A DNA stretch of 39,833 nt, from the IMG/VR virus record IMGVR_UViG_3300021373_002327, positions 1 to 39,833 of that record. One strand, given 5' to 3'. Under the pieces are notes generated by a model. It worked only from the letters and a program-made list of their open reading frames with translations. It had not been told where the DNA came from and ran no database searches. Of this stretch, positions 4,873-39,833 are shown piece by piece. Source of the DNA: a virus. Position 1 is the stretch's first letter. Every line of letters begins with the position of its first letter. The position numbers were made by a program, and so were the translations under genes.

Positions 4873-7662
4873 TTAGTTTGTAATTCCCATTTCTTTATAC
4901 TTACGCTCTTTTGCGGATTTTAATAATGATCTTAGTTGTCTAAACGACAAATTTTTACTCTGATCACTTACTCCCAATTCCTCATTCGTTAAGTTTAACC
5001 AATCAGGCGTGGTAAAGAGCTCACACTCGTATTCACGTCTTTGTACATAATCCTGTCGTACTACAACATCACTGTCAGGACCTACCTTTCCAGTTCTCCA
5101 ACGTTTCATTAATGTTGGTACTCTTTCGTAGTTTCCGTTATTTAATTCTAATAACAATTCGCTTTTAGCAAATCTATCTACTCCTATGTGAGTAGCAAAA
5201 CTTACTAATGCTAATAATTGGTTATCGCTTATTTCTACTGTTATTAGATCTGATATGAGTCTTTTAGTTTCACCTAATCTGCTTATGAGACCTAACTGTT
5301 GTCCAACTGGTCCTATACCATTAGATACATCTACGATTTTATTTCCTGTTTTTCTGTCTGCGAATATCAAACTAGGTCCATCTACTACCATGTCTACTTG
5401 TTTTTCTGCTAATGCATCTTTTACTGCTGTAAAGTTTTTTGATGTAACTCCCATAGAACCCATAGGCTCTCCAGTAACCCCATCATATATTTCCCGGTAG
5501 TCTCCAACTTTTCCTTTTAAGAGGTCTGCATGGGTTCTTAAATCATTCACTGCGCCGCTAATTTCACTAGCCCTGCTTTGAAGTTCGTTTACTGAATCCA
5601 CAACACCTGTAATTTTATTTTTCATTTCTTTTATTTGCAAAGAATCTAGATCTATAGGTAAGTCAAAATCATTTAAACTAAATTGCCCTAGTCTTCCTTC
5701 TAATTCTTTCAAATCTTTAGCAACACCTATAACTTTATCTCCTAATGCATTGCCTGTGGGGAACCTAAATGCAGGAATGGCTATGCCTAATGCCGCCATT
5801 AGTCCTGACATATTTTTTATACCCATTAAATTTTTCATACTTGCTGGTAAGAAATTACTAGCCATTCCTGTAATGTCTTCCATATTTGGAATCATACCAA
5901 GAGCAGAGTCTATGGCTCCACCAACTTGATCGCTTACTGCTCCTATTCCATTCCCTATTGCTGAAGATATATCAGATGCGGTTCCTACTGCTCCAGATGC
6001 CTTATCGGCAAAGCCATTTCCTTTTTTATCTCCTTTAGGCGTGACGGAGTCTGCTGGGTTATCATCTCCTGCTTCAATTTGATTTGGTAATGTTTCTTTA
6101 TCTGCGTTCTTATCCTCTCCTATTGATGAGGGATCTTCTGTGGTTGGGTCAAACTGTCCATGCCCATCGTATGGTTCAGCAGTTATTAATGTTCCCACAA
6201 TAGTGCTTATTTTTGTTTTTTTACCTGGCCTTTTACCGCCACTAGTCAATACAACATCACCTTCCCGGTCGTATTCAGGTGGATCACTTGGTTGATCTTC
6301 TATGTCGTTTCCATCTAACGAAGGTGCAGAAACTTTTAATGCTTCTAATCCTGTAAGTACTGGTGCAGGCCCTGTATTTAAATTTATTAGACCTCCAGAT
6401 ATTCCTGTTAGTGCTGATGTAACTCCTACTGAGGGTGCGGCAATGCCTACAACACCAGCGACTGCTTTTATATCTACACCCATTGTTGTAGATGTGATAG
6501 AAGTTGCTGTACCACTTGCTGTCTTTAGCATGTTGCCACAGTTAATGTCTATGTCGCCGCCTATAGCAGATAGTTGAGCATTACGAGTTGCTAACATACC
6601 CATATCTGCGGCCGCATGAAAATTTATATTTCCTCCTGAACCTAATGGTGGCAATCCTAATTTTCCTAATTTAACTCCAGTATAATCTCCTGCTATATTA
6701 TCTCCTGCGGCTTTTACTCTTACGTTTTGACCTGCTTCAATATTAATATCATAGTCTGCTCGTAAGTTAAAATTCTTTTTAGCTCTTAGATTAAGATCAC
6801 CTTCTCCAAAAACATTTATATTGCCAAGCCTGTCTAACTCCACCCATGCTTTTCCGTCTTTATTGATCATGTAAATGGAGCCAGTTACATCATCTAATAA
6901 TATTTGTTGCCCTTTACCGGATCGCAATCTAATCATTGAACTGGTTGTTTCATCATCCATTACAAACTGATGTCCTGCCCCAATAACTGTTGTGCCGTCT
7001 TTACCCCTAGGGCCTTTTGTAAGTATTCCTACTAGTGAACTAGGTGTCTCTCTTCTTGCACCTTGCGTTCCTGCTCCTCTTATGTTGTCATTTATAAGGC
7101 CTTGCTTAGTAATTGCTTCAGCCATATCATGGTGTACTGGCCTCAATATATTGTTATGGCCTTTTTGTTCAGAGTATTTGTTTTTTTCTGCCGCAGGAAG
7201 TAAAAAGTTTCCTCCTTGAAAAGTCTTCCCTGCAGGTATGCCAGGAATCATATGATTAAAATCTGGTGGTAAAACGTGACTTAATATGTATCCGTGTTTG
7301 GTGTTACCGTCAGCAAATGCAACCAGAACCATACTTCCAACATCTGGTGGTGAGGTCCACATTCCGTAACTTTGTTGTGTATTTTCATACTTTTCTGTGT
7401 CGTTAGCCTTTAGATTATCTATGTTAGAAATGCCGCCAAACGGTGTAGAAAATCTTACCTTTTTTATTGATTTTACTTTTGTGCCAGTAGTTTTATGTAA
7501 TTGTGGGATTTCAACATCTACCGAACCTGTATAGAAACTGTCTTGATTGTTTACAATTTTAGCAAGAAAGATACCATTATCTAAATGATCAGGTTTATCA
7601 GGCTCAGGATTATGAAATGTGGTCCCTAAGATCTGCTGTGAATAATCTCCTTTCTTACCCAT
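4873..7662 (-). CDS. 5: Baseplate central spike / hub protein gp5
   Basis: 929 residues. The N-terminal part (about 30-150) is the gp5/VgrG-type OB-fold, with GIFLAKIVNNQDSFYTGSVD and MWTSPPDVGSMVLVAFADG. Around 250-420 come short repeats with alternating charged and glycine residues (GDLNLRAKKNFNLRADYDIN), which fit the triple beta-helix needle. A long Gly/Asp/Ser-rich linker with coiled-coil stretches follows. The last 150 residues resemble the C-terminal lobe of a T4-lysozyme-type GH24 domain (LLALVSFATHIGVDRFAKSE, LFTTPDWL). T4 gp5 has the lysozyme before the needle; here it is last. I cannot see the usual catalytic Glu-x8-Asp-x5-Thr lobe before it, so the domain may be inactive. The gene overlaps the upstream hub gene by eight bases. 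Confidence 0.88.
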   Translation of the reverse strand: MGKKGDYSQQILGTTFHNPEPDKPDHLDNGIFLAKIVNNQDSFYTGSVDVEIPQLHKTTGTKVKSIKKVRFSTPFGGISNIDNLKANDTEKYENTQQSYGMWTSPPDVGSMVLVAFADGNTKHGYILSHVLPPDFNHMIPGIPAGKTFQGGNFLLPAAEKNKYSEQKGHNNILRPVHHDMAEAITKQGLINDNIRGAGTQGARRETPSSLVGILTKGPRGKDGTTVIGAGHQFVMDDETTSSMIRLRSGKGQQILLDDVTGSIYMINKDGKAWVELDRLGNINVFGEGDLNLRAKKNFNLRADYDINIEAGQNVRVKAAGDNIAGDYTGVKLGKLGLPPLGSGGNINFHAAADMGMLATRNAQLSAIGGDIDINCGNMLKTASGTATSITSTTMGVDIKAVAGVVGIAAPSVGVTSALTGISGGLINLNTGPAPVLTGLEALKVSAPSLDGNDIEDQPSDPPEYDREGDVVLTSGGKRPGKKTKISTIVGTLITAEPYDGHGQFDPTTEDPSSIGEDKNADKETLPNQIEAGDDNPADSVTPKGDKKGNGFADKASGAVGTASDISSAIGNGIGAVSDQVGGAIDSALGMIPNMEDITGMASNFLPASMKNLMGIKNMSGLMAALGIAIPAFRFPTGNALGDKVIGVAKDLKELEGRLGQFSLNDFDLPIDLDSLQIKEMKNKITGVVDSVNELQSRASEISGAVNDLRTHADLLKGKVGDYREIYDGVTGEPMGSMGVTSKNFTAVKDALAEKQVDMVVDGPSLIFADRKTGNKIVDVSNGIGPVGQQLGLISRLGETKRLISDLITVEISDNQLLALVSFATHIGVDRFAKSELLLELNNGNYERVPTLMKRWRTGKVGPDSDVVVRQDYVQRREYECELFTTPDWLNLTNEELGVSDQSKNLSFRQLRSLLKSAKERKYKEMGITN

Positions 7663-33526: not shown

Positions 33527-34963
33527 ATGCCAAGAGCAAAAAAGTCTGCTACAAAGACAGAAAACAAAGTAGTAGCAAAGAAAGAAGCAGTTAAAGAAAC
33601 ATCTTCTGAAATAGATGTAAAAAAATTAAAGGCGGCACTTAAAAAAGAATTAAAGAAAGAGTTGCAAAGCCAAATAGATGAAAGTTTTTTAATGTGGGGA
33701 GCAGAGACTGAAGACTCGGAAACCACAGCAGATGCATTTGTAGATATGGATTTGCTAAGAGCTGAAATATCAGCAGAGTTTAAGAAAGAATTTGATAGAA
33801 AAATTGCACAAATAAAAAGTGTTAGTTCAGGAGAAACACAGGCATTAAATTTGTCTAATAATTTAATAGACATTTCTGCAACAACAGATGGAATAACTGT
33901 TAGTAAGTCAGGAGATGACAATGTTCTGTTTACTGTTACAAAAAACGGTGCTTTAGCATTTGGTAACAGATCGCCAAGAACAAATGGCTATGGTACAGCA
34001 CATTTTAGAATGAAAGGTGCAGGTAAATCTCCTATACCTACAAATGGAGTAGGTAGTACAAGAGGACTAATAGTAGAGGGAGATGGTGACGATACAAATA
34101 CATTTATTTTCAGAGCATTAAGCACTGGAAATAGACAAGGTTTTAATGTAGGTAGTACTGGAAAGGTTTTATTAGGTACAAACGAAGATCCTGATAATAG
34201 TTTGTTTACTGCTTACAATAATGATTTTGATGTAGATGGATTTAATATTATTACTGCAAGTAAGTACAATGCAGGTAATGTTTTAAATTTACAACATGCA
34301 TCAGATGAAATTGACGCATATAATTTTATTGATGCTAAAAATAATTGCAATGAAGATATCAAAGCAAGTATGTTTAGAGTAAATGGAAAAGGCGAAACGT
34401 TTACACACAAAGGATTTTTTAGTAATAGTTCAGGTTATGCAGAATTATTTGAATGGGCAGATGGTAATCCACAGAATGAAGATAGAACAGGATTAACAGT
34501 TGCCATAAATGCAGATGGCCGACTTATAGATGCTAACGATGATAATGAAAGTATAATTGGTGTAGTAGTTGAAAGTGCGGCAGTTATAGGTAACACAGGT
34601 TGGAATGTTTGGCAAGATAAATTTAATGTAGATAAAACAAACTACCTTAAATATAAAGTTGTAGAATGGAAAGATGATTCAGGAGTACTACATAGTGAAT
34701 ATGTAGCAAGTTTAAGTCCTAGTTTTGCCTTACCAGAAGATGCCATAATTTATGAAACTGGTGCAGACGGTGAAGACTTAAAAAGACCGTTATTATCTAA
34801 AAGATATGATGCTAATAAAGACTACATACCAAGAATTAAAAGAGGATGGACACTAGTAGCATTAAAAGGCACGGTGACTATGTTTAAAGGCCAAAACATA
34901 AGAAGTTCCTGGATAAAAATAAGGGACTTGAATGACGAATTAGAACAGCGAATATTGTTATAA
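33527..34963 (+). CDS. Structural protein with Peptidase_G2-like self-cleavage domain
   Basis: 478 residues. A Lys/Ala-rich basic N-terminus (MPRAKKSATKTENKVVAKKE) and an acidic coiled coil (residues 20-105) precede beta-rich repeats. The C-terminal part from about 300 reads YAELFEWADGNPQNEDRTGL, then DGRLIDANDDNESIIGVVVE, and RGWTLVALKGTVTMFKG. This resembles the Peptidase_G2/IMC domain of phage tail and neck-appendage proteins, which helps trimer folding and then cuts itself off. I have not identified the catalytic residues. CAGGA precedes the ATG. It lies between the fibre genes and is probably part of the same host-contact structure. Confidence 0.65.
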   Translation: MPRAKKSATKTENKVVAKKEAVKETSSEIDVKKLKAALKKELKKELQSQIDESFLMWGAETEDSETTADAFVDMDLLRAEISAEFKKEFDRKIAQIKSVSSGETQALNLSNNLIDISATTDGITVSKSGDDNVLFTVTKNGALAFGNRSPRTNGYGTAHFRMKGAGKSPIPTNGVGSTRGLIVEGDGDDTNTFIFRALSTGNRQGFNVGSTGKVLLGTNEDPDNSLFTAYNNDFDVDGFNIITASKYNAGNVLNLQHASDEIDAYNFIDAKNNCNEDIKASMFRVNGKGETFTHKGFFSNSSGYAELFEWADGNPQNEDRTGLTVAINADGRLIDANDDNESIIGVVVESAAVIGNTGWNVWQDKFNVDKTNYLKYKVVEWKDDSGVLHSEYVASLSPSFALPEDAIIYETGADGEDLKRPLLSKRYDANKDYIPRIKRGWTLVALKGTVTMFKGQNIRSSWIKIRDLNDELEQRILL

Positions 34964-35019: not shown

Positions 35020-37497
35020 ATGGCAACAGCAATTCAAAGGAGACGAGGTACTACTAGCCAACACAGTACATTTACTGGGTTAGCGGGTGAGATCACGATC
35101 GATACAGATAAAAATACGGTCGTAGTACATGACGGCTCACAAGCAGGTGGTTTTCCACTAGCAAAATATTCAGATGTTTCTGCACTAGGTGGTGCTGACA
35201 TTACTGACGTTGTAGCAGGATCTGGTTTAACAGGTGGTGCATCAAGTGGTAGTGCAACTATATCATTAGACTATGAAAACTTAACAGGTAACTTGATACC
35301 GAGTGCAAACAACACTTACTCATTAGGTAGTTTATCTAGTGTTTGGAAAGATGTGTTTGTTGGTCCAGGATCACTTTATGTTAATGGACAAAAGGTTATT
35401 GAAGATAATTCAGGTACAATTCAGTTTAGTGCTGATGAAAACCAAAACCTAAGTATTCTAACTTCAGGATCAGGTGATATTGAATTAACATCAGGTGGAG
35501 ACATTCAACTTAAATCAAACATAGTTTTAAGTGCTGGTAAAACAATTACAACAGCAGGTGGCGGTGCTACTGAGCAAGGTGGTAATATTGATATGAACAG
35601 CAACTACATTAATAATGTGGGAACTCCTCAACAAGGAAGTGATGCTGTAAACAAAACATATTCCGACGGTCTCATGTCAGGAGTTACATTATCAGCAGGA
35701 AATGGACTTACTGGTGGTGGTGACCTTACAGATAACAGAAACTTTGCTGTTGGGCAAGGGGATGGTATTAGTGTAGCCGCAGACGCAGTTGCAGTTGATA
35801 CCACAGTAGTTAGAACATCAGGAGACCAAAGTATTGGTGGTGATAAAACATTCAGCGATAATGTTATCCTAGATGGTAACTTAACTGTTAATGGAACGCA
35901 AACAGTAGTTAATACAGAAACTTTAACAGTAGATGACAACATCATTGTACTTAATAACAACGAAGCAGGAACCCCTTCTGAAGACGCTGGTATTGAAGTA
36001 GAGCGTGGGTCATCAACCAATGTTAAATTGCAATGGGACGAAAGTGCAGATGTATGGCAGTTTACAAATGACGGTTCAACATACTACTCGATTCCAACAA
36101 CATCAAATATTAGAACAGCAGTAAGTGTTACTGATGCTGGTGGAGACGGAAGTTTAGCATATAACAATAGTACAGGTGTTATTACATACACAGGACCAAG
36201 TGCCGCAGAAACAAGAGCTCATTTTAGTGCTACTGATTCAGGTGGTTTAGGTTCATTTAGTTATTCAGATGGTGTTTACACATATACAGGTCCAGCAGAT
36301 TCAGATATTACAGGACTAATTAGTGTAACAGATGCAGGTGGGTTAGGCTCATTAGCATATGATACAGGTGTAATTACATATACCGGTCCAGCAGATGCAG
36401 ATATTACAGGACTAATTAGTGTAACAGATGCTGGTGGAGACGGAAGTTTAGCATATGATACAGGTGTAATTACATATACTGGTCCAAGTGCTTCAGAAGT
36501 TAGAGCACACTTTAGTGGTGGTACAGGTATTACTTTAAGCTCAGGTACAATTAGTGTTACAGCAGGAAGCATTGGTGCAACTGAATTAGAAGCATCAGGT
36601 GTAACAGCAGGTGTATACGGTGATGCAGATTCAGTATCACAGGTTACTGTAGATGCAGATGGACGTATTACTAGTGCGGCAAATGTTGATATTGCAATAT
36701 CATCAGGACAAGTAAGTGGTTTGGCCGCATCAGCAACAACTGATACAACAAGTGCAAGTAACATTAGCTCAGGTACACTAGCAAGTGCTAGATTGCCAGA
36801 ATTAGCAGTATCCGACTTTGCGGCGGCGGCTGTTCAAATAAGTTCAGAAGATTTTGCAGATAATGATACGTCATTTATGACATCAGCGGCTATTCAAGAT
36901 AAGATTCAGGCATTTGGATATTCAACAACTACTGGTACTGTAACAAGTGTTGCAGGTGGTGATGGACTATCAGGCTCAGTAACTACTTCAGGTTCACTAG
37001 CAGTTGACTTATCCGATACATCAGTATTTACAAGTACAAATACAGCCAGTAAGGCGGTAGTTAGAGATGGCTCAGGTAACTTTGCCGCAGGAACTATAAC
37101 TGCTACAGCAACACAGGCTCAATATGCGGATTTGGCTGAGAAATATGTAACTGATGAGCAATACGAACCAGGAACAGTTGTTGTATTTGGTGGAGAAGCA
37201 GAAGTTACTGAATGCTCATCACAAGGTAATCATGCAGTAGTTGGTGTAATAAGTACAGACCCTGCATACATGATGAACAGTGAAGCAGAAGGACAATATG
37301 TTGCTTTAACAGGAAGAGTTCCATGTAAAGTAGTTGGTCCAGTTGCTAAAGGTGACCTACTAGTAAGTTCATCAGAACCAGGACATGCAGAAGTAAAAAA
37401 TGATGCAAAATCAGGTACAATCCTAGGTAAAGCAATAGGCCAAAATCCAGAAGGAAATGGTCCTGCAATTATAGAGGTACTTGTTTCATTAATGTAA
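35020..37497 (+). CDS. Large fibre/adhesin-type structural protein C
   Basis: 825 residues. It starts MATAIQRRRGTTSQHSTFTG, then LAGEITIDTDKNTVVVHDGS, a common N-terminal module of marine phage fibres. The middle holds modules VTDAGGDGSLAYNNSTGVIT and TYTGPADADITGLIS. A 96-base unit is tandemly repeated in DNA (36304 and 36400). The C-terminal 230 residues are paralogous to protein A, with SDFAAAAVQISSEDFADNDT, AIQDKIQAFGYSTT, AQYADLAEKYVTDEQYEPGT and STDPAYMMNSE. It is followed by a terminator at 37518. The likely role is as a fibre or tail-tip protein that shares its tip type with protein A. Confidence 0.7.
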   Translation: MATAIQRRRGTTSQHSTFTGLAGEITIDTDKNTVVVHDGSQAGGFPLAKYSDVSALGGADITDVVAGSGLTGGASSGSATISLDYENLTGNLIPSANNTYSLGSLSSVWKDVFVGPGSLYVNGQKVIEDNSGTIQFSADENQNLSILTSGSGDIELTSGGDIQLKSNIVLSAGKTITTAGGGATEQGGNIDMNSNYINNVGTPQQGSDAVNKTYSDGLMSGVTLSAGNGLTGGGDLTDNRNFAVGQGDGISVAADAVAVDTTVVRTSGDQSIGGDKTFSDNVILDGNLTVNGTQTVVNTETLTVDDNIIVLNNNEAGTPSEDAGIEVERGSSTNVKLQWDESADVWQFTNDGSTYYSIPTTSNIRTAVSVTDAGGDGSLAYNNSTGVITYTGPSAAETRAHFSATDSGGLGSFSYSDGVYTYTGPADSDITGLISVTDAGGLGSLAYDTGVITYTGPADADITGLISVTDAGGDGSLAYDTGVITYTGPSASEVRAHFSGGTGITLSSGTISVTAGSIGATELEASGVTAGVYGDADSVSQVTVDADGRITSAANVDIAISSGQVSGLAASATTDTTSASNISSGTLASARLPELAVSDFAAAAVQISSEDFADNDTSFMTSAAIQDKIQAFGYSTTTGTVTSVAGGDGLSGSVTTSGSLAVDLSDTSVFTSTNTASKAVVRDGSGNFAAGTITATATQAQYADLAEKYVTDEQYEPGTVVVFGGEAEVTECSSQGNHAVVGVISTDPAYMMNSEAEGQYVALTGRVPCKVVGPVAKGDLLVSSSEPGHAEVKNDAKSGTILGKAIGQNPEGNGPAIIEVLVSLM
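36304..36495 (+). repeat. Tandem 96-base repeat within fibre protein C
   Basis: Two adjacent units (36304-36399 and 36400-36495) with high DNA identity; each encodes a 32-residue module (DITGLISVTDAGG...AYDTGVITYTGP). This indicates recent unit duplication. A third, more diverged relative precedes it, and protein A has further related modules. Confidence 0.8.
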
Positions 37498-37516: not shown

Positions 37517-37541
37517 GAGGAGCATTTATGCTCCTTTTTTT
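37517..37541 (+). terminator. Terminator after fibre protein C
   Basis: AGGAGCAT, loop TT, ATGCTCCT, then eight T residues. It separates the fibre genes from the curli-type operon. Confidence 0.88.
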
Positions 37542-37579
37542 TGACTTGATTTTCTAATTAATTAAAGTATGTTAGAAAT

Positions 37580-37587
37580 GATAAATA
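37580..37587 (+). promoter_or_regulatory. Late-type promoter box before the curli-type operon
   Basis: GATAAATA, 32 bases before the ATG at 37620. It lies inside the first residues of a longer possible frame from 37569, which argues for the shorter start. Confidence 0.6.
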
Positions 37588-37619
37588 CTGGTAAGAGAGT
37601 AACAAACACAGGAAATAAT

Positions 37620-37916
37620 ATGGAAGATATCTTTTTATTAATTGCAGAGGTAGGCGCACCAATCGCCGGCAGTCTTGTAATGGGTTTCTTTATCTTTTTG
37701 GTAATTAAACAGATTATGGAAGGTGTCGTCGATCAAGTAAAAACACTTACTATGTTTTGTAAAAGTTTAGAAGCAAGAGCAAGTACAATGAGTAATGAAA
37801 TGATGAAAATTGATTTGCTAGTAAGTAGTGCCTTAGAATTAAGACCAGATATAGACCGTATCGCAAGAGCAGAAAACTTCGTCGAAGACGGTAAGGTTGA
37901 TGCTAGGAGAGACTAG
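37620..37916 (+). CDS. Small one-helix membrane protein 1 (holin-like build)
   Basis: 98 residues from the ATG at 37620, which has AGGA at ideal distance. A frame from 37569 would add 17 residues but overlaps the promoter box. One strong membrane helix lies near residues 12-32 (GAPIAGSLVMGFFIFLVIKQ). A charged helical tail follows (KSLEARASTMSNEMMKIDLL), ending in many Asp/Arg. The neighbour has the same build and almost the same length, so the two may be distant paralogues. One helix plus a cytoplasmic amphipathic tail fits BhlA/UviB-type holin-like proteins, but no family match is certain. It begins the operon with csgF and csgG. Confidence 0.65.
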   Translation: MEDIFLLIAEVGAPIAGSLVMGFFIFLVIKQIMEGVVDQVKTLTMFCKSLEARASTMSNEMMKIDLLVSSALELRPDIDRIARAENFVEDGKVDARRD

Positions 37917-38215
37917 TGGATTTAGCACAACTGATTGCAGATTACGGATTCCCCGTAGTTATGGCGGTTGGGCTTGGCTACTTTATCTACTACATATGGA
38001 GATTTATAGGCGAACATATAGATCCTGCGTTACACGATATGCACATAGCATTGATAAGAGTAATAGATAAAACTCGTATGCTTGATCAAGATCTTATAAG
38101 ACTTCAACAAAAAGTCGATGTAGTTCTTGAATATAGAGCAAGACAGGAGGTTCTCAAAGATGCTGAAGCTCAGAAGGCTTTAGATGAAATTGAGAGGGAG
38201 AAAAAGAAAAAATGA
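37916..38215 (+). CDS. Small one-helix membrane protein 2 (holin-like build)
   Basis: 99 residues. The start is GTG at 37916, on the last base of the previous stop, with GGAGA before it. One membrane helix lies at about 10-30 (YGFPVVMAVGLGYFIYYIWR). The tail is an amphipathic or coiled-coil helix (VIDKTRMLDQDLIRLQQKVD), ending in a lysine run (EREKKKK). It resembles protein 1 in layout (LIA..G.P at the start, then membrane helix, then coil). The function is unknown; a holin, a spanin-like helper or an inner-membrane anchor for the CsgG pore are the options the context suggests. It overlaps csgF by four bases (ATGA). Confidence 0.65.
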   Translation: MDLAQLIADYGFPVVMAVGLGYFIYYIWRFIGEHIDPALHDMHIALIRVIDKTRMLDQDLIRLQQKVDVVLEYRARQEVLKDAEAQKALDEIEREKKKK

Positions 38216-38703
38216 AATTAATATTACCAATAACATTTTTATTAGCAGTTTTTAGTTTTAATTTATCTGCAGACGAAATAAAATTTAAATTTAAAAATCC
38301 AAGTTTTAGTGGTTCTGGAACAGGTGCTCATTATTTAACTATTGAGAACCAGGAAAAGTCACGTAGAGATAAAATTAAATCAGATATAGAAGCGGCCTTA
38401 AAGGCGGCTGAAAGAGCAGATCAAAATAGTACAATAAACAAGTTTATTAGAAACTTGGAAAGCAGAATTTATTCACAAATTTCTAAAGGATTAGTTGATA
38501 GTATGTTTTGTGATCCAGCAACAGTAGTTAGTTGTACAGGTTCAACTAGTGGAGCATTTGATATTGAAGGCAACACGGTTACATATGAAGTAATTACAAA
38601 TGCAGATGGTTTGGAAGTAATTAAAATGACTATTGTTGATCCAGATGGAACAATAACAGAAATTGAAATACCAATTGGCATTGGACAAATAGCAGGCGGA
38701 TAA
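38212..38703 (+). CDS. csgF: Curli assembly protein CsgF homologue
   Basis: 163 residues. The signal peptide is MKLILPITFLLAVFSFNLSA, cut before Asp21. The mature N-terminus IKFKFKNPSFSGSGTGAHYL matches the pore-inserting segment of CsgF (E. coli has FQFRNPNFGG). The helix FIRNLESRIYSQISKGLVDS and the C-terminal beta-strands also fit. Bacterial CsgF plugs into the mouth of the CsgG channel on the cell surface and links it to the curli nucleator. Two Cys residues (SMFCDPATVVSCTG) form an insertion not found in E. coli CsgF. It is translated by overlap with the previous gene and precedes csgG by two bases. Confidence 0.85.
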   Translation: MKLILPITFLLAVFSFNLSADEIKFKFKNPSFSGSGTGAHYLTIENQEKSRRDKIKSDIEAALKAAERADQNSTINKFIRNLESRIYSQISKGLVDSMFCDPATVVSCTGSTSGAFDIEGNTVTYEVITNADGLEVIKMTIVDPDGTITEIEIPIGIGQIAGG

Positions 38704-38705
38704 AC

Positions 38706-39731
38706 TTGACTAAGAATATTTTAATAGCACTAGTAGGTGTTTTATATTTAAGTGGATGTGCGAGTGTTGCCATACCCGGTGATGAAATGTGCCAGACAGA
38801 CTTTTTAGAGTGTGTTGAAGAACCACAAAAAGTAGAATTACCCACATATAGAAAATTAAGATATCTGCCACCGGCAGAAACAATGCCTGTGGTTGCCATA
38901 TACACATTTGGTGACGGAACAGGACAAAGAAAAAGTCAAGACGGAGTTGCTAGTTTTAGTACAGCAGTTACGCAAGACGCAAAAAGTTTATTAGTAGACG
39001 CTCTAAAGGCGGCAGGTTCAGGAGAGAATCCAAAAGGAACTTGGTTTAGAGTAGTTGAAAGAGGACTGGGTTTAGATAACTTAGTCAGAGAAAGACAAAT
39101 AGTTCGAAGCACTCGTTCAGAGACTGCCAAACAGGCAGGATTAGATGAGTTCCAAGAACTACAGCCAATGTTATTTGCTGGAATGATATTAGAAGGTGGT
39201 ATCATAGGATACGACACTAATGTTGAAACAGGAGGTACAGGGGCAAGATATCTCGGTATTGGGACAACCAATCAATATCGAAGAGATAGCATAGTGGTAT
39301 CGCTTCGTGCTGTAAGTACTCTTACAGGTGAAGTTATATTAAACGTGCAGACACAGAAAACCGTGTTAAGTTCAGGGCAGGCAGGAGACGTATTTAGATT
39401 TGTAGATATGGATACTAAACTGCTAGAACTTGAAAGTGGTATGACACAAAACGAAAGTGTAACATTTGCAGTCCGATCAGCGATTGAGGCCGCGGTGTTA
39501 GAACTTATTAAGCAAGGTGATGAAAGAGGATACTGGAAGATTGTTTATCCGGAAGATTGGGACGAACAGGTAGAGGAGCAAGAGCAAGCCTACTGGATGA
39601 GTCTCAAGGAAAACGGCAATCTTACTGACGAGAAAGATTTAGAACAATTTTCAAAAGACCCAAATGATTTACCTTTATGGAAACGCATTCTTTTAAAGAA
39701 TGAACAAAAACCAATATTGGAGAAAAAATAA
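38706..39731 (+). CDS. csgG: Curli secretion channel lipoprotein CsgG homologue
   Basis: 341 residues. The start is TTG at 38706, the only start upstream of the lipobox LSGC (Cys18); AGGCGGA precedes it. CsgG signatures are FSTAVTQDAKSLLVDALKAA, then RVVERGLGLDNLVRERQIVR, GGIIGYDTNVETGGTGARYL and VVSLRAVSTLTGEVILNVQT. Bacterial CsgG forms a nonameric beta-barrel pore in the outer membrane. The Ala after the lipid Cys fits outer-membrane sorting. Compared with E. coli (277 residues) this protein has a C-terminal extension of about 60 residues that is acidic and aromatic. No csgE, csgA or csgB is certain in the window; the next frame might be a secreted partner. Confidence 0.93.
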   Translation: MTKNILIALVGVLYLSGCASVAIPGDEMCQTDFLECVEEPQKVELPTYRKLRYLPPAETMPVVAIYTFGDGTGQRKSQDGVASFSTAVTQDAKSLLVDALKAAGSGENPKGTWFRVVERGLGLDNLVRERQIVRSTRSETAKQAGLDEFQELQPMLFAGMILEGGIIGYDTNVETGGTGARYLGIGTTNQYRRDSIVVSLRAVSTLTGEVILNVQTQKTVLSSGQAGDVFRFVDMDTKLLELESGMTQNESVTFAVRSAIEAAVLELIKQGDERGYWKIVYPEDWDEQVEEQEQAYWMSLKENGNLTDEKDLEQFSKDPNDLPLWKRILLKNEQKPILEKK

Positions 39732-39833
39732 TGAAGATATTTAAAAACTTAGCGGTTGGTGTCTTCGCTTTAATCGGCCTTATGGCTAATCCGGTACTTG
39801 CAGATGATAATGAAGTGTTACTAGACCAAGACG
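39731..39833 (+). CDS. Secreted protein, partial (possibly curlin-like)
   Basis: The first 34 residues are visible before the window ends. They start MKIFKNLAVGVFALIGLMAN, with a clear signal peptide cut after VLA. The mature start DDNEVLLDQD has the spacing of a curlin-type repeat (N-E-x4-Q-x-G), but too little is present to decide. It overlaps the csgG stop by one base. Its position makes it the best candidate for a substrate of the CsgG/CsgF pore. Confidence 0.45.
   Translation, partial: MKIFKNLAVGVFALIGLMANPVLADDNEVLLDQD

Follow-up and report, generated by a model that had tools for sequence, protein, structure and literature searches.

Curli systems of bacteria, such as those encoded by csgBAC and csgDEFG in E. 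coli and by csgF and csgG in alphaproteobacteria, have in common with the phage module the CsgG pore, the CsgF protein, and a curlin-repeat substrate. As the original prediction had pointed out, curli genes were known from marine phages before, and we found 3 papers on the subject, one of which contains a proposal about lysis. In pelagimyophages, csgF, csgG, 2 hypothetical genes, and one curli-associated gene were reported, and a hypervariable region was noted (PMC7029224, 2020). A curli or type VIII secretion module was described in pelagiphage HTVC008M, with CsgE, CsgD, and CsgC falling outside the phage module and CsgE reported as absent (PMC9599517, 2022). In the same paper, one or 2 genes that always precede the csg genes were labelled histidine kinase; judged by position, these are apparently the genes that we refer to as smA and smB. 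For phage Melnitz, which infects Methylophilales, a pinholin or secretin role in lysis was proposed for CsgG, csgA and csgB were stated to be lacking, and the authors saw no clumping (PMC9004378, 2022).

What curli do in phages of the ocean's commonest bacteria has been a question since 2020, with guesses ranging from sibling capture to pinholins, and our literature search found no paper after the module papers of 2020 to 2022 that treats the 2 small genes. The phage curli module is already published; what is new here is the identity of its 2 opening genes as lysis-cassette proteins, which offers a concrete and testable link to the timing of lysis.

Organization of the gene cluster

The window, by which we mean the whole stretch of 39,833 nucleotides (39.8 kb) that was analysed, comes from a T4-like marine phage, as seen from PHROGs matches to portal, major head, and baseplate genes. 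The gene run at its right end (37580 to 39833) consists of a late box, smA, smB, csgF, csgG, and the start of a gene for a secreted protein, and both the order and the tight spacing described in the original prediction were confirmed from the sequence, 3 of the junctions being overlaps (1, 4, and 1 nt) and one a gap of 2 nt.

The smA gene (37620..37916, + strand) encodes a holin-like protein of 98 amino acids with a single transmembrane (TM) segment, a helical or coiled remainder, and a conserved C-terminus (...DRIARAENFVEDGKVDARRD); the list of open reading frames places its start at 37569, and the start used here is that of the family, at 37620. The smB gene (37916..38215, + strand) has a GTG start codon, overlaps smA by 1 nt, and encodes 99 amino acids. 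It overlaps by 4 nt with csgF (38212..38703, + strand), the product of which has a signal peptide and matches PF10614 with an E-value of 2.2e-11. After 2 nt follows the adjacent csgG homolog (38706..39731, + strand), with a TTG start codon and coding for a lipoprotein of the outer-membrane pore family. The last gene (39731..39833, + strand) overlaps csgG by 1 nt and is cut by the contig end.

The cluster represents the first half of the known phage curli module. In content and order it is the same as the pelagiphage module, in which 2 small genes, csgF, csgG, a curlin-repeat gene, fecR, a second curlin-repeat gene, and an adenylate cyclase gene follow each other, and the same pair with csgF, csgG, and curlin-repeat genes is present in Melnitz. 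Relative to bacterial curli operons, the phage module has the extra pair, FecR, the CHASE2-cyclase, and a T4-type late box.

Immediately 5' of the operon, at 35020-37494 and 33527-34960, are a tail-fibre gene with an Mtd_N (major tropism determinant N-terminal) domain and an adjoining gene for a Peptidase_G2 protein; the Peptidase_G2 domain is an IMC autoproteolytic domain. A baseplate hub protein encoded at 4873-7662 on the - strand has a C-terminal lysozyme domain (PF00959, E-value 1.3e-10; phrog_13211), the only one among the window proteins scanned.

Probable late promoter upstream of smA

A T4-type late promoter box, GATAAATA, is located at 37580..37587 on the + strand, 40 nt before smA. 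The window contains 10 copies of GATAAATA, as compared to 3.2 expected, and none of 100 shuffled sequences reached 10. Each of the 7 copies on the + strand (19089, 21718, 24645, 28652, 32432, 34965, and 37580) lies 36 to 174 nt 5' of a + strand gene, and with the 3 copies on the - strand (4004, 11755, and 19123) included, the copies are mostly at gene starts. The motif seems to be the late box of this phage.

Among the relatives, an exact TATAAATA was present in 110 of 246 distinct stretches upstream of smA, against 6.0 expected from shuffles, whereas it was found before csgF in only 3 of 230 upstream stretches and before csgG in none of 216. Since the motif is enriched before smA and near-absent before the 2 csg genes, the operon most likely begins at smA and is read late. 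The predicted promoter has the layout of T4-type late promoters, in which a TATAAATA-like box stands shortly 5' of late genes, and by analogy with T4 the expression foreseen in the original prediction would indeed be late. Between the tail-fibre gene and the operon, a stem-loop followed by a T-run (AGGAGCATTTATGCTCCT TTTTTTTT; 37518..37543, + strand) resembles an intrinsic terminator; the scanner placed the stem on the - strand, and the + strand reading was made by eye.

CsgG, CsgF, and the curlin-like proteins

The CsgG protein matched PF03783 with an E-value of 4.7e-47 and, when used as a profile, the solved structure of E. coli CsgG with an E-value of 8e-72. No match to the PDB was obtained with a CsgF profile; the protein retains the N-terminal FxFxNPxFxG motif, which we take to correspond to the part of E. 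coli CsgF that sits inside the channel of CsgG. The original prediction had pointed to an additional C-terminal tail in CsgG and a cysteine pair in CsgF as possible adaptations to a new partner. Both features are real, but the alignments showed them to be lineage-specific: the tail, of about 60 amino acids past the conserved end, is common to the lineage of the window and absent in others, and the cysteine pair (FCDPATVVSC) is found in the lineage of the window and in some, not all, of the others.

In 4 relatives with 91% to 94% identical CsgG proteins (L004, L005, L007, and L010), csgG is followed by genes for a curlin-like protein of 263 to 277 amino acids, a FecR-domain protein (Pfam E-value 6e-11), and a second curlin-like protein, and, on contigs that extend far enough, by a gene for an adenylate cyclase with CHASE2 (3e-36) and Guanylate_cyc (3e-19) domains. 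The full order smA-smB-csgF-csgG-cur1-fecR-cur2-AC was complete in 110 loci. The N-terminus encoded by the truncated gene at 39731 is nearly that of the first curlin-like protein, Cur1, in L004 and L010 (about 263 amino acids in full), and because the Cur1 proteins of the relatives share this N-terminus and carry curlin repeats, we conclude that the truncated gene is a curlin-repeat gene.

The Cur1 proteins contain 1.94 QxGxxN motifs per protein, as compared to 0.10 in shuffled sequences, and their match to the Pfam Curlin_rpt family had an E-value of 0.0025, which does not reach the cut-off. Beyond the signal peptide, an AlphaFold2 model of Cur1 from L004 (pLDDT 80.7) consisted entirely of β-structure, and the viral models in BFVD that matched it best were phage proteins annotated as "Curlin associated" (E-value 2e-6). 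A Foldseek search of a curlin-like model against the PDB gave no match with an E-value below 0.001, and VIA-align returned generic β-solenoids, CsgA among them (8c50, Z 16.2), which supports a solenoid without being specific to curlin. Several loci also encode a small lipoprotein-like protein of about 91 to 107 amino acids (CA[ST]VG..) between the second curlin-like gene and the cyclase gene (L004 10823-11143, L005 13066-13380, and L030 14899-15171), with no convincing family match.

Given that genes for curlin-repeat proteins, FecR, and the cyclase follow csgG in the relatives, the pore most simply exports a phage-encoded curlin, and we infer that the route would be through CsgG and CsgF. Of the uses that the original prediction had listed for the pore, fibre export is accordingly the simplest, while the genes downstream lend less support to a direct part in lysis. 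In the proposal made for Melnitz (PMC9004378), CsgG is itself the lysis pore, pinholin- or secretin-like, and the curli genes serve to lyse the cell instead of exporting fibres. Some of the loci do have lysis genes beside the module, as this proposal would predict, but the inner membrane is where pinholins act, and CsgG is here a lipoprotein of the CsgG family, the CsgF protein keeps its N-terminal motif, and curlin-repeat proteins follow csgG throughout, also in Melnitz's own annotation. The presence of these curlin-repeat genes disposes of the argument that a pore is encoded without any fibre gene, and we consider a lysis pore made of CsgG very unlikely. Where the Melnitz paper connects the module to lysis through CsgG in the absence of csgA and csgB, the connection proposed here goes through SmA and SmB, with curlin-like genes present.

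Features of the SmA and SmB proteins

SmA and SmB both match phrog_18771, annotated as of unknown function, and are therefore paralogs. Their median lengths in the family are 97 and 93 amino acids, respectively. Both proteins contain a single strong hydrophobic segment close to the N-terminus and no clear second segment, the positive-inside signal for their topology is weak, and SmB was modelled by AlphaFold2 as one helix spanning residues 12 to 98. Searches with an SmB profile against solved structures gave only weak matches to unrelated membrane helices, and Foldseek found nothing among viral models, a single long helix being an uninformative query.

An N-terminal TM helix followed by a long helix is also the build of the small holins of lysis cassettes (XhlA, YvrJ-like), and presumably of BhlA/UviB, which the 2 proteins resemble. 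Unlike such holins, SmA and SmB always occur as a pair of paralogs and are not assigned to any curated holin family, the matches being at most borderline: the SmB protein of the window matched phrog_4898, annotated as "holin", weakly (E-value 0.003), the best matches of the small proteins to curated holin families were to phrog_4898 (0.001 to 0.008) and YvrJ (0.006), and no Pfam holin match was above the cut-off. Neither of 2 known holin families, PF11351 and PF11031, was matched in HTVC008M, Melnitz, or 3 large contigs, but the control genomes gave no match either, so that this result does not establish absence. The pair provides holin candidates for phages such as HTVC008M and Melnitz.

The annotation as histidine kinase was rejected. 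The proteins of 93 to 98 amino acids had no Pfam kinase match and no H-box or other kinase motif, so that genes described in the pelagiphage papers as hypothetical or as histidine kinase, apparently a wrong label, are here reassigned as coding for paralogous one-helix proteins of lysis cassettes.

Linkage of smA and smB to csgF and csgG

The original prediction had staked its case on the 2 small genes being conserved next to csgG in other phages, and it withstood this test. An unbiased scan based on a CsgG alignment showed the smA-smB pair before csgF in 60 of 60 CsgG loci with at least 1.3 kb of upstream sequence; 4 loci in the scan without the pair were cut by the contig end. A first scan had likewise found the pair in every locus that reached upstream. 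Only 6 of 50,697 phage records contained the pair, all 6 of them also with csgG, and 5 large genomes or contigs each contained exactly 2 phrog_18771 genes. Inversion or splitting of the curli block has not separated it from the pair (smA smB AC-; csgF csgG cur1 fecR smA smB AC-).

This invariant association, together with the reported absence of CsgE from the module (PMC9599517), would be expected if SmA and SmB were inner-membrane parts of the secretion system that energize the export of curlin, gate it, or chaperone curlin in place of CsgE, with the positions in lysis cassettes being secondary. However, the pair is absent from the bacterial curli loci sampled, and pairs without any curli genes are located in lysis cassettes with 2 unrelated endolysins and beside known holin families (see below). 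We consider this explanation unlikely.

The data did not support a derivation of the pair from the curli operons of bacteria. Only 2 of 337 alphaproteobacterial genomes matched phrog_18771, one of them (G007) on phage-like contigs and the other with a borderline E-value of 6e-4 in a frame of 343 amino acids. Four chromosomal-looking alphaproteobacterial csgF-csgG loci (L526-L529) contained curlin-like genes and lacked the pair, and no FecR or adenylate cyclase match was found next to csgF and csgG in these loci. Since the sampled bacterial loci lack it, the pair looks like a phage contribution to the curli module. In a tree of the pair, curli-free members were placed in several positions, corresponding to 6 changes with moderate support, which suggests that curli genes have been gained or lost beside a stable pair more than once.

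Lysis genes next to smA and smB

In 3 curli-free loci (L083, L084, and L344), the gene order was an XhlA-like or phrog_689 holin gene, smA, smB, and a GH24 lysozyme gene (Pfam E-value 5e-44) that overlaps smB by 4 nt, so that the pair takes the slot between a holin-like gene and an endolysin gene, as in small-holin cassettes. The GH24 gene directly followed smB in 107 of 131 pair-only loci, and a GH108 endolysin gene (4.5e-26) had the same slot in 7, with the reservation that the curli-free lineage is largely one clade, so that the 107 and 7 loci are not independent and represent few independent events. The exchange for an unrelated endolysin in a single slot is what a lysis cassette predicts. 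In these relatives, the proteins have the attributes of phage holins, namely small size, at least one TM helix, and a cassette position by an endolysin, in agreement with the holin build ascribed to them beforehand, and this company suggests that SmA and SmB may act as holin-like proteins.

Lysis genes were also identified near the pair in curli loci. Of 224 distinct curli loci, 31 have a free-standing T4-type lysozyme gene (Pfam E-value 6.5e-10, about 155 amino acids) no more than 2.5 kb from smA, in all cases upstream of it and on the same strand. In 94 loci with 6 kb of upstream sequence, all 11 occurrences were in the 2 kb nearest to smA, and there was none at 2 to 6 kb. Other arrangements were a GH108 endolysin gene, an Rz-like spanin gene (phrog_812, E-value 7e-4), smA, smB, and csgF in L376; a GTA_holin_3TM gene (GTA-type holin with 3 TM segments) directly before smA, 21 nt away, in L348; and an adjoining Hydrolase_2 cell-wall hydrolase gene in L350. 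In the podophage-type loci L055 and L075, smA, smB, and the curli block were followed by genes for an Rz-like spanin (phrog_812, E-value about 1e-10) and a GH24 endolysin, and in L530 an endolysin gene was located directly after fecR. By placing the curli block between the pair and the spanin or endolysin genes, the latter 3 loci position it inside a lysis cassette.

In the window, smA is preceded by the tail-fibre gene, and no endolysin gene adjoins the pair. In about 83% of the curli loci, no recognized lysis gene is present in the 2.5 kb that precede the pair. That only about one in 6 loci has one, and that the region has been described as hypervariable (PMC7029224), would fit with the late region being a hot spot for accessory genes, where the curli block came to lie beside lysis genes without any functional link. 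Against such chance proximity stands the invariant association of the pair with the curli genes, which survives rearrangement while the other neighbours vary, and we regard it as improbable.

The explanation that we prefer, and hold with moderate confidence, is that a late curli exporter has been inserted into, and is co-transcribed with, a lysis cassette in which the pair is holin-like, and that the dying cell is coated with fibres before lysis. Starting from the box observed before smA, one transcript would be made late in infection. SmA and SmB would accumulate in the inner membrane and contribute to the timing or the execution of lysis, either as holin accessories or in the manner of a holin/antiholin pair. 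CsgG and CsgF would form an outer-membrane pore for the curlin-repeat proteins encoded just downstream, so that, shortly before lysis, amyloid-type fibres may cover the surface or debris of the dying cell, and FecR and the CHASE2-adenylate cyclase may regulate the export and lysis module. With the curli block inserted in the late region for lysis, either beside the cassette or within it, fibre export and lysis would share their timing; the 2 processes look wired together. Candidate gains to the phage are that progeny are kept near sibling cells or that superinfection is blocked. More tentatively, and with a low probability in our view, the pair and the curli pore may be a single device, in which SmA and SmB act first, as a controlled inner-membrane conduit or timer tied both to curlin export and to the CHASE2-cyclase signal. 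In such a combined secretion and lysis system, the phage would cover the cell with amyloid and burst it afterwards, on one clock.

Other contigs with the pair or the module

A CsgG match was obtained in a sequence of 1,499 bp without annotation, deposited as "Salmonella phage S.Kent 1-2-1" (OR851715.1), which is probably host DNA rather than phage DNA. The phage pair or module was also identified on contigs of GTDB-representative metagenome-assembled genomes (L061-L082) labelled as Planctomycetes, Bacteroidota, Thaumarchaeota, Rhodobacteraceae, and others, which are apparently misbinned phage DNA. Finally, the module was present, with one pair each, on contigs of 250,519 bp (L012) and 339,794 bp (L092); both exceed the 147-kb genome of HTVC008M and are candidate jumbo phages or assembly artefacts.
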